The notes below the pieces were generated by a model. That model made no database searches and was not told the origin of the DNA. It saw only the letters and a list, made by a program, of their open reading frames with translations. Of a stretch of 64,000 nucleotides of DNA, positions 22,040-57,092 are shown in pieces (positions within the stretch are counted from its first letter, which is position 1; each line of letters begins with the position of its first letter). The stretch is from NCBI RefSeq assembly GCF_900177655.1, contig NZ_FXWK01000002.1, forward strand, positions 1,113,510 through 1,177,509, written 5' to 3'. Source of the stretch: Devosia lucknowensis. Lineage in GTDB: Bacteria > Pseudomonadota > Alphaproteobacteria > Rhizobiales > Devosiaceae. The position numbers were made by a program, and so were the translations under genes.

Positions 22040-22157
22040 GGCCCCCTCATCCGGCCTTCGGCCGGCCTCTCCCCCAAGGGAGAGGTGAAGGGGGCACCGA
22101 GTTTCTTGCCTTTCCCTTGGGGGAGAGGTCGCCGCGCAAGCGGCGGGTGAGGGGGCC
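22040..22157. repeat. Palindromic repeat between cobS and cobT
   Basis: An AGGCCCCCTCA / TGAGGGGGCCT pair (bases 22039-22049 and 22149-22159) encloses a second exact pair, CTCTCCCCCAAGGG / CCCTTGGGGGAGAG, and a smaller CCGGCCTTCGGCCGG hairpin. The whole insert can fold into one large structure. Related, shorter elements lie at 25063-25178 and inside prmC. It looks like a dispersed palindromic element of the kind common in rhizobial genomes. It also separates cobS from cobT within their operon. Confidence 0.8.
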
Positions 22158-24072: not shown

Positions 24073-25058
24073 TCTGCCGCGTCGCGCTTGTCGCTGCCCT
24101 GCTGCTTCCGGTGGTCCCCGCGGGGGCCGTGGATGCGACGGTCAGCGCCGCGCCGGTGACGCGGTTCAGGGGTGCCGATCTCGACCAGCCGGTGGATAGG
24201 CTCATCTTCCGCGGCGGCATGACGCTGCAAAGCCCCGACGATACGTTCGGCGGCTTGTCGAGCGTATCCCAGACGGGCGCCGATCAGCGCGTCAGTTTCG
24301 TCACCGACAGGGGCAATTTCGTTGCCGGACAACTGGCCTATGACGAGGCCGACCGTTTGATCGGCTTCATCGGCGTCACCATCGAGCCCATGCGCAACTC
24401 GGCCGGCGACGTGCTGCCCCGTCAGTATGCGCGCGATGCCGAGGGCATGGACACGATCTGGCGCGACGGCGTGCCCGTGGCGGTGCGCGTGGGGTTCGAG
24501 CACCTGACGCGGGTTGCCGATTTCGCCATTACGGACGGGCGCCCGGGCGGTGCGGCGCGTGAAGTGCCCATTCCGCAGTGGCTGACCGACCTGCGCACCA
24601 ATGAGTCCATCGAGTCGGTCTGCATCGCGCCCGAGGCGTCGCCGATTGCCGGATCGACGCTCCTGCTCACCGAAGAGGCGCTGGACGAGGACGGCAATCA
24701 TCGCGGGGAATTCCTGGGCGTCAACGACAAGGGGCCCGTGACCTATGTCAATAGCCCGATCGTCAATCCTACCGACTGCAAGTTCCTTCCCAACGGCGAC
24801 CTGCTTGTGCTCGAGCGGGGGGTGTCACTCTTCGCCTTCGTCATGAACCTCCGGCGCGTTCCCGCCGATCAGGTGAAGCCGGGCAATCTGATGAAGGGCG
24901 AGCTGCTGCTCTCGGCGCAGGGCGGCGAGATCGACAACATGGAAAGCCTCATGGTGCATCAGACGCCCGGCGGCGAAACGCGCATCCTCATCGGCTCGGA
25001 CAATAATTTCAACGACTGGCAGCGCACCCTGATCCTGGAATTCGCGCTGCCCGAGTAG
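24069..25058 (+). CDS. Exported esterase-like / phytase-like beta-propeller protein
   Basis: A 329-residue protein with a signal peptide (residues 1-20, ending PAGA). The family is the esterase-like activity of phytase group (a beta-propeller): [23 protein letters not shown], then [39 protein letters not shown] and [24 protein letters not shown]. These proteins act outside the cytoplasm on unknown phosphate or ester substrates. It overlaps cobT by four bases and is often the last gene of the cobS-cobT operon in this order, but no link to cobalamin is known to me. Confidence 0.82.
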
Positions 25059-25062
25059 TTCC

Positions 25063-25178
25063 CACCGGGCCTCCCCCCGAAAGGCGGGGAGCGGCCGGCC
25101 CGTGCGTAAGCAAAATATCGAGACGAACGCGATGCGCTCCTCCCCCTTCGTCAGGGGGAGGTTGGGTGGGGTCCTGCG
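25063..25178. repeat. Two adjacent palindromic repeats after the esterase-like gene
   Basis: First unit: TCCCCCCGAAAGGCGGGGA within nested GGCC-rich arms (about 25067-25105). Second unit: a perfect 9-bp stem CCTCCCCCT / AGGGGGAGG at 25139-25161 followed by the tail TTGGGTGGGGTC. The second unit is the close relative of the element inside prmC. They lie between convergent genes and may also act as terminators. Confidence 0.7.
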
Positions 25179-55086: not shown

Positions 55087-56163
55087 ATGCCCAGCCTGCC
55101 CCAGGACAAGCTCGATGCGCTCGAAACCCGCTTCCAGTACATCGAAGCGGCACTGTCTGGCGGCGCCAGTCCGGACGAGTTGGCCAAGCTTTCCAAGGAA
55201 CATTCCGACCTCAGCGAGATCGTGGGCCAGATCACAGCCTACAAGAAGGCCCAGCGCGACCGGGCTGAAGCAGAGACGCTGCTCAAGGGCGGCGACAAGG
55301 AAATGGCCGAGATGGCCGAGGCCGAAATCGAGGCCCTCGACGAGGCTCTGGAAGGGCTCGAACAGTCCATCCGCATTCTGCTCCTGCCCAAGGACGAAGC
55401 CGACGAAAAGTCCATCATCCTCGAAATCCGCGGCGGCACCGGCGGCGATGAGGCCGCGCTGTTCGCCGGCGATCTCTTTCGCATGTACGAGCGCTATGCG
55501 GCGACCCGGGGCTGGAAGGTCACGGTCATGGAAGAGAGCCCCGGCGAAATGGGCGGCTTCAAGGAAATCATCGCCAATGTCTCGGGCAGGGGCGTTTACG
55601 CCCGCATGAAGTACGAGAGTGGCGTTCATCGCGTCCAGCGCGTTCCAGCCACCGAAGGATCGGGCCGCATTCACACGTCTGCGGCCACCGTGGCGGTGCT
55701 GCCCGAAGTCGAGGACATCGACATCGAAATCCGCAACGAGGATATCCGCATCGACACGATGCGCGCCTCGGGCGCGGGCGGGCAGCACGTCAATACGACG
55801 GACTCGGCGGTGCGTATCACCCATATCCCGACCGGCATCGTCGTGACGTCGGCGATGAAGTCGCAGCATCAGAACCGCGCGCAGGCCATGATCGTGCTGC
55901 GCTCGCGGCTCTACGAAATGCAGCGCGAGGAACGCGACAGCGCGCGTTCGGCAGAGCGCAAGGGGCAGGTGGGGTCGGGCGACCGGTCCGAGCGCATCCG
56001 CACCTATAATTTCCCCCAGGGTCGCGTCACCGATCACCGGATCAACCTCACGCTTTACAAGCTCGACAAGGTGGTGGCCGGTGAAGCGCTGGACGAGCTG
56101 ATCGAAGCGCTGATCACGGAGAACCAGGCGGCGCAGCTCGCGGCCATGGAGCAGGTCAACTGA
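55087..56163 (+). CDS. prfA: Peptide chain release factor 1
   Basis: A 358-residue RF1 that ends translation at UAA and UAG. The GGQ motif (residues 231-233, in [10 protein letters not shown]) enters the peptidyl transferase centre, and the PAT motif in [15 protein letters not shown] reads the stop codon. The Gln of GGQ is methylated by PrmC, whose gene begins two bases past its stop. Length is normal. Confidence 0.98.
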
Positions 56164-56165
56164 GC

Positions 56166-57092
56166 ATGGATCCGAGCATAGGCGCGCTCTGGCGCGGCTG
56201 GCGTGACGTCCTTTCCCGTCTCGGTTTTCAAACCGCAGCGCTCGATGCCAAGCTGCTGGCCGGTCATGCTCTGGGTCTGGATGCGCTGGGCCTCGCCACG
56301 CGCGAGGGAGATGCCGTGTCGGATGCCGACGCGGCCCTGGTTGCCGCCTTGATGCAGCGCCGCATGAGTGGCGAGTCGGTCGGCCGCATCATCGGCATGC
56401 GCGAATTCTACGGATTGCCGTTTGCGCTCAGTCCAGCAACGCTCGAGCCACGCCCCGATACCGAACTGCTCGTCGATCTGGCGCTGAAGCAGTTGCCGCA
56501 AGGCGGGCATCTGCTCGATCTGGGCACCGGCAGCGGCTGCATTCCCATTGCGGTGCTGGCGAACCGCAAGGATGCGCGCGGCCTCGCAACCGATCTCAAT
56601 CCCGACGCGCTGGCGATGGCACGGGCGAATGCCGAGCGGAACGGCGTGGCGGATCGGCTGGATTTTGCGCAAGGAAACTGGTTCGAGGCGTTGGCCGGGG
56701 AAGGGGCCCAACAGCCGATGCTTTTTTCTCCTTCCCCTGCTTCAGCGGGAGGCCGGGTGGGGGTGTCGGAGGATGCATTTGACCTCATCCTCTCCAATCC
56801 CCCCTATATCGCTTCATCCACCGTCGACACCCTCTCACCCGAGGTCAAGGACTTCGACCCCCGCCTGGCACTCGATGGTGGTCCCGATGGGCTTGCGCCC
56901 TATCGCATCATCGCCGCCGAGGCGAAGGCCCATCTCTCGCCCTCTGGCGTCGTGCTGGTCGAAATCGGCTACGACCAGGCGGGGGATGTCGCGGCTTTGT
57001 TCGAGCATCACGCATTTGCCGGGATTGCCGTTCACAAAGACCTCAATGGCCTTGATCGTGTGATTTCGGCGCACCACTTGAAGGACAAGTAA
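56166..57092 (+). CDS. prmC: Release factor glutamine methyltransferase PrmC, with an unusual internal insert
   Basis: A 308-residue PrmC that methylates the GGQ glutamine of RF1 and RF2. Motif I is LLDLGTGSGCIPIAVLA; the catalytic NPPY is at residues 211-214. Ordinarily a stretch like GNWFEAL is followed within a few residues by FDLIxSNPPY. Here about 24 extra residues (179-203, including QQPMLFSPSPASAGGRVGVS) lie between. Their DNA matches a palindromic repeat found elsewhere in this window. The frame stays open and other motifs are intact, so the enzyme is probably functional with a surface loop. The gene follows prfA by two bases. Confidence 0.93.
   Translation: MDPSIGALWRGWRDVLSRLGFQTAALDAKLLAGHALGLDALGLATREGDAVSDADAALVAALMQRRMSGESVGRIIGMREFYGLPFALSPATLEPRPDTELLVDLALKQLPQGGHLLDLGTGSGCIPIAVLANRKDARGLATDLNPDALAMARANAERNGVADRLDFAQGNWFEALAGEGAQQPMLFSPSPASAGGRVGVSEDAFDLILSNPPYIASSTVDTLSPEVKDFDPRLALDGGPDGLAPYRIIAAEAKAHLSPSGVVLVEIGYDQAGDVAALFEHHAFAGIAVHKDLNGLDRVISAHHLKDK
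56728..56768. repeat. Palindromic repeat copy inside prmC
   Basis: Bases CTCCTTCCCCTGCTTC and AGCGGGAGGCCGGGTGGG align closely with the intergenic element at 25137-25173 (CTCCTCCCCCTTCGTC and AGGGGGAGGTTGGGTGGG). The stem is weaker because of drift. It is translated in frame. Confidence 0.65.

Follow-up and report, generated by a model that had tools for sequence, protein, structure and literature searches.

The stretch of DNA analysed here, referred to as the window, is 64,000 nucleotides of the Devosia lucknowensis genome (genome G000, with contigs C1 and C2). It contains prmC, with prfA as its upstream neighbour (Table 1). The product of prmC scores 256.9 bits against the NCBIfam equivalog model TIGR03534 (cut-off 199.1), and both the NPPY motif and the PrmC fold are present. 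The whole genome gave one match only to this protein at an E-value of 1e-20 or better. Approximately 27 extra residues were found between GNWFEAL and FDLILSNPPY, which bears out the initial annotation, where some 24 residues (179-203) had been noted between a GNWFE-type block and FDLIxSNPPY, with the frame kept and both sides normal.

Table 1. Coordinates of the features discussed, in the window and (G000) in the genome of D. lucknowensis.
Feature	Position	Strand	Basis or remark
prfA (RF1), upstream neighbour of prmC, presumed substrate gene	55087..56163	+	ORF; length control
prmC (peptide chain release factor N5-glutamine methyltransferase)	56166..57092	+	ORF, 308 aa; TIGR03534
In-frame insert, residues ~178-204	56697..56777	+	WFEAL helix/strand beta-4 loop; borders by eye
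Decayed F1 palindromic unit	56734..56765	+	Weight matrix, 39.9 bits; 30/32 identity to nearest genomic copies
FDLILSNPPYI, strand beta-4 and NPPY motif, intact	56778..56810	+	Invariance in alignment
Intergenic F1 element, inverted pair of palindromic units	about 25057..25174	+	Weight matrix hits on both strands
DUF559 ORF between two F1 pairs (the prmC family)	G000 C2:360872-361544 (L026 1500-2172)		
DUF559 ORF between elements of a non-F1 family	G000 C2:468484 to about 469105 (L211 1385-2006)		
DUF559 gene (C1:556020-556325) with pairs of another family on both sides	G000 C1:555852-556491		

The predicted structure revealed an intact PrmC fold in which the insert is a disordered loop, the mean pLDDT being 53 and 47 for residues 181-190 and 191-200, respectively. 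Residues S210-Y214 are without variation across 70 aligned PrmC proteins. The insert had been described as lying next to the catalytic motif. This is true of the sequence; in the model, strand beta-4 (205-210) separates the insert from NPPY, which comes after that strand, and the fold would presumably place the loop and NPPY at opposite edges of the sheet.

Ungapped comparison of prmC DNA (56728-56762) with an intergenic stretch (25137-25171) revealed 29 identical bases out of 35. This likeness had been noticed before, and it stands, but the intergenic copy is paired with an inverted second arm. A weight matrix for this family (F1), trained on 67 other copies in the genome, gave the prmC copy the top score within the window (39.9 bits), ahead of the intergenic copy (37.4 bits at 25143) and its second arm (16.5 bits at 25057, minus strand). 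The maximum was 8.4 bits over 20 Markov-1 sequences of 64 kb (one strand) and 8.2 bits over 1000 codon-shuffled versions of prmC. The match in prmC is far above chance, and these scores against random and shuffled sequences rule out a fortuitous likeness. The extra stretch of prmC belongs to the dispersed palindromic family F1, as a decayed copy that is translated in the sense that its frame is open. The decay shows in RNA folding, where the prmC copy did no better than shuffles (z = +0.62). The intergenic pair folded better than its shuffles (z = -2.68). Across the genome the F1 core, with at most one mismatch, was matched 79 times, versus three times with the reversed pattern, and our own scan located 85 units in 60 clusters, many of them inverted pairs approximately 97 bp apart. 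No Rfam family matched in the window at gathering scores. A separate palindrome at 22053-22084 on the minus strand, CTCTCCCTTGGGGGAGAGG, looks like a unit of another family, F3, which is described below.

The distance from DxGTGSG to NPPY was used to compare PrmC proteins. It is 60-68 residues (usually 60) in the 51 measurable of 58 named loci from outside Devosia, and 61-105 residues in the 18 nearest named loci (L080-L097), comprising 17 from Devosia and one from an "Alphaproteobacteria bacterium". The insert had been expected to be absent or different outside close relatives, and none of such size was found in the 51 measurable non-Devosia loci. A loop common to the whole order is ruled out, since all 51 fall within 60-68 residues. 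An order-wide search of 397 genomes likewise revealed, by eye, no large gap in the non-Devosia alignments among the matches listed. In prfA the length from GGQ to the stop is 130 residues in 43 of 44 genus loci, the gene not being found in the remaining one.

A search of the genus covered 75 Devosia genomes. The prmC loop was readable in 71 of these and partly in G050, and none was obtained from G072, G077 and G080. Elements were found in the loop of 28 of the 72 genomes (24 clear, three stubs and one degenerate, as classed by eye). We grouped them, also by eye, into about six palindromic families, of which F1, F1b and F2 are alike in outline. The 27 inserts among the 71 fully readable loops comprise F1 (1), F1b (4), F2 (5), F3 (8), F3 stubs (3), F4 (3), F5 (1), F6 (1) and a degenerate one, with the stubs and several insert borders judged by eye. 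In G050 prmC is broken at contig ends inside the element (L182, L183, L292), so fragmented genomes may hide more inserts. Loop lengths in the remaining genomes are about 12-20 residues, and by eye some of these loops resemble further scars (G074, G086). The inserts add from a few to about 100 residues, and their peptides are unrelated. The coding frame is open in all 27 inserts, as against 13, 3, 14, 18 and 10 of 27 for the other five frames. Among the best 120 of 7714 PrmC proteins, 42, including that of the window, have loops of at least 26 residues.

We constructed a tree from the prmC codons with the loop taken out. Parsimony on this tree requires at least 24 changes of loop content over nine states and at least 16 for insert versus none, these counts being blind to gain as opposed to loss. 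Sister genomes with unlike content include G015/G010, G003/G018, G070/G059 and G000/G001, and G073, which carries F3, stands beside G057 and G079, both of which have 12-residue loops. The loop between the WFEAL helix and beta-4 is a genus-wide Devosia site at which the content has changed many times, with about six families involved and the frame kept. In several clades the F3 inserts share, by eye, a starting point directly behind one particular leucine codon. Where prmC contains F3, the genome has a median of 45 F3 copies (n=11), versus 5 in the other genomes (n=61; p = 1.1e-5), in a comparison that covers 72 of the 75 genomes, counts the prmC copies and is uncorrected for kinship.

The site in prmC has a counterpart. 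The cobN gene of D. lucknowensis (C1:215678-220000, L306) carries in-frame palindromic elements at three sites, and at one of these the pair is complete and measures about 120 bp, all as judged by eye. We searched with the CobN of G048 and considered the best 120 of 7100 proteins. Many Devosia members of this set have translated palindromes at one site, and the other CobN proteins differ in length in the regions matching the three sites of D. lucknowensis. In 20 of the 120 the insert contains a whole DUF559 (Vsr-like) endonuclease domain, and this is bounded by palindromic peptides on both sides in 18 and only downstream in two (P0174, P0230), again by eye. Pfam analysis of one such protein (P0151) found only DUF559 and MTES_1575 beside CobN. 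DUF559 was present in none of the best 120 of 7714 PrmC proteins. CobN has element sites comparable to that of PrmC. The single insertion seen in the initial annotation is part of something larger, a hotspot for several families throughout the genus, with CobN as a second target.

Elsewhere, elements are rarely found inside genes. Our in-gene caller, which recovers 26 of the 27 prmC inserts used as controls, placed two of the 60 F1 clusters of D. lucknowensis in genes, these being prmC and a chance match without a hairpin; the other 58 were not called in-gene. A genome search for additional in-gene copies had been proposed at the outset, and for F1 it yielded nothing further. An apparent second in-gene F1 copy at C1:2158535 was taken as intergenic, its ORF being antisense to two real-looking long ORFs, and the core matches at C2:1027748 and C2:507608 lie in coding DNA but have no hairpin. 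In samples of 20 regions each, hand-picked among the matches listed, none of 20 F2 clusters was in a gene in G015, and one of 21 was in G048, namely in cobN. A contiguous 1.2 Mb of D. lucknowensis sequence contained 44 inverted repeats, 11 of them called in-gene; by eye, ten of the 11 look like ordinary coding sequence, and one is the cobN element. The sequence GAYCTCATC follows both the prmC and the cobN sites. It was absent from the flanks of the other elements of this genome (0/72 and 0/67), and no general target motif was found. In G048 an 11-mer, CGATCTCATCG, occurs once each in L290 (~2576) and L291 (~4360), a short distance downstream of the respective inserts in cobN and prmC, and its core is missing from the other elements examined in D. 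lucknowensis.

The DUF559 domain is also encoded by standalone genes. The window has none, and all three DUF559 genes seen in the D. lucknowensis genome lie between palindromic pairs. At the first C2 locus the start and stop of the ORF fall within the element ends, the terminal inverted repeats have 35-nt arms that are 89% complementary (L026 1500-1610), and the second F1 pair contains a nested hairpin, a sign of insertion of one element into another. At the second (C2:468484) the left element is a reported pair and the right one is a pair by eye, with arms that match those of the left. Two of the three loci were fetched for their element matches, and that sample is therefore biased. The third, on C1, is the sole DUF559 gene in the same 1.2 Mb, which had been chosen regardless of elements and in which only three of 20,000 random intervals were flanked on both sides by pairs. 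The three ORFs score 105.1, 129.4 and 121.7 bits against PF04480 and one CobN protein scores 103.1 (cut-off 20.6). A pattern that we defined by eye, DFx(6-10)hhhEhDGxxH, appears in 20 of 20 CobN-embedded and 81 of 120 standalone copies.

DUF559 genes are associated with palindromic pairs, and they may mobilise them. Our reading, to which we assign a probability of roughly 0.6, is that non-autonomous palindromic elements have come to occupy a permissive loop again and again and that the DUF559 cassette is the candidate mobiliser. The elements would land widely, and genes would nearly always lose them. In prmC and cobN they are probably tolerated because the loops there are disordered and lie at the surface, and since composites and stubs are seen, a resident element probably aids the insertion of others or its replacement by them. 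With less assurance, a DUF559 gene of the Vsr-like PD-(D/E)XK type and the palindromic pairs on its two sides may form a cassette, of which the short pairs would be non-autonomous relatives. As in homing, the nuclease might cut or nick DNA, and the break might then receive a copy of the element. The insert would be a tolerated and presumably harmless passenger, without known benefit to PrmC.

A stronger form of this proposal is put forward tentatively, at somewhat less than an even chance. Here the DUF559 gene and its two palindromic pairs would be an autonomous mobile system with the short pairs as its non-autonomous offspring. It would home to a small number of places in conserved genes (prmC, cobN), where it would persist as a peptide that is translated but not spliced out, at times with the entire nuclease in the host protein. 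If so, the DUF559 system would be to the REP-like repeats of RAYT-poor Alphaproteobacteria what RAYTs are to classical REPs. DUF559 is a concrete suspect for the spread of hairpin repeats in bacteria mostly without the known REP transposase, and the origin of such repeats becomes testable at the bench. The prmC site is in addition a natural replicated experiment, in which mobile DNA lengthens an important translation enzyme with the frame kept, at a single position and across dozens of species.

Perhaps tolerance alone is at work, with insertion random across the genome by some agent, the prmC and cobN loops accepting extra residues and everything else being purged. The disorder of the PrmC loop in the predicted structure and the lack of a common target sequence at the D. 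lucknowensis elements agree with this, and the rarity of in-gene copies otherwise (0/20, 1/21 and 2/60 in the three genomes) points to strong purging. However, permissive loops exist in many proteins, yet in-gene copies recur in prmC and cobN within a few codons, although the gene samples are small, and the shared leucine codon of the F3 inserts, seen by eye in several clades, is also at odds with random landing. We regard tolerance alone as unlikely.

Equally improbable in our opinion is a single ancient insertion into prmC, perhaps of F3, the content of which was later swapped by gene conversion or nested insertion while deletions left stubs. The stubs themselves (G055, G063, G068) and the composites (G004, G023) are what such a history would leave. 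G003 and G073 have internal or linker sequence in common, and some F3 inserts may on that account be inherited. All of these were recognized by eye. Against descent from one insertion, the palindrome itself differs among families, and the tree calls for 16 changes between insert and none, as with G073 beside G057 and G079, with gains and losses indistinct. Repeated occupation by elements of different families, with DUF559 as the candidate mobiliser, remains our preferred reading.

Known palindromic repeats provide a background for this. Rickettsia palindromic elements (RPEs) are dispersed palindromic DNA translated in frame within unrelated genes (PMC10969869), and RPEs together with intragenic REPs have served as models (also PMC2635572). 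The resemblance to RPEs proposed initially holds for behaviour, as the prmC inserts would likewise be translated in frame within a protein gene. It does not extend to family: the RPE1 model TIGR01045, which covers RPE1 only, had no match in G000 and none in 14 control genomes, and matched four of 385 genomes of the class (two over the cut-off). None of 30 loci at TIGR01045 matches holds the PrmC motif, so that a link of RPE1 to prmC was discarded. Moreover, RPEs are described as spread over many genes, whereas here several families share one loop of one gene in one genus.

Of the intragenic GTAG/CGTC REPs more than half occur as dimers or groups and code for 20 to 30 residues, and in recB of two Xanthomonas species nearly the same position is occupied by different REPs (Di Nocera et al. 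2013, PMC3733652). The latter is a direct precedent for one site used twice by different REPs. The text parts examined do not name prmC, and in contrast to that case about six families have used the Devosia site, in ~28 of 72 genomes. REPs have also been described in Bradyrhizobium (PMC5082802).

The F1 repeats resemble REPs in being short palindromes, often in inverted pairs and mostly outside genes, 58 of 60 clusters not being called in-gene. They resemble REPIN/RAYT systems and MITEs as inverted pairs of short palindromes that are plausibly non-autonomous, and MITEs also in having terminal inverted repeats. It might be supposed that they are REPs moved by the tyrosine transposase RAYT (PF01797), but this domain is absent from G000 and was found in only three of 75 Devosia genomes by a model that matches five of 14 control genomes, and the gene between the full pairs encodes a DUF559 nuclease, not a RAYT, all of which makes that explanation very improbable. 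No more credible is a useful insert, kept by selection because it alters the partner choice or stability of PrmC or the folding of its mRNA, for although inserts occur in many species, many others have none, the peptides are unrelated and differ widely in length, and the copy in the window has no mRNA structure beyond chance.

The preferred reading, with DUF559 as candidate mobiliser, also has a close parallel in Vsr-like (EDxHD) homing endonucleases and inteins, in which a nuclease is embedded in a host protein. Judged from the translated sequence, a Vsr-like nuclease domain would similarly lie in frame within the conserved CobN. It differs in that the CobN nuclease comes with translated palindromes, and P0151 offers otherwise only MTES_1575. 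A literature search, in which few subscription journals were covered, found no description of the prmC site or of DUF559 with palindromes.

Plasmids were used to look at DUF559 more widely. Of 42 matching records we picked 17, and 16 of these are from Alphaproteobacteria. Paired palindromes no more than 160 bp away were found upstream of the gene in 13 of the 17 loci (versus 1/68 control intervals in the same loci), downstream in three (4/68) and on both sides in three (0/68), leaving four without an upstream and 14 without a downstream pair. Six of the 13 loci with an upstream pair are from Azospirillum; counted per genus the figure is 7/9. Sphingomonas had a pair in one of three loci, and Deinococcus and Sphingobium had none. 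Outside Devosia, the plasmids of L337 (Sphingomonas), L338 (Sinorhizobium) and L349 (Qipengyuania) carry DUF559 with paired palindromes on both sides.
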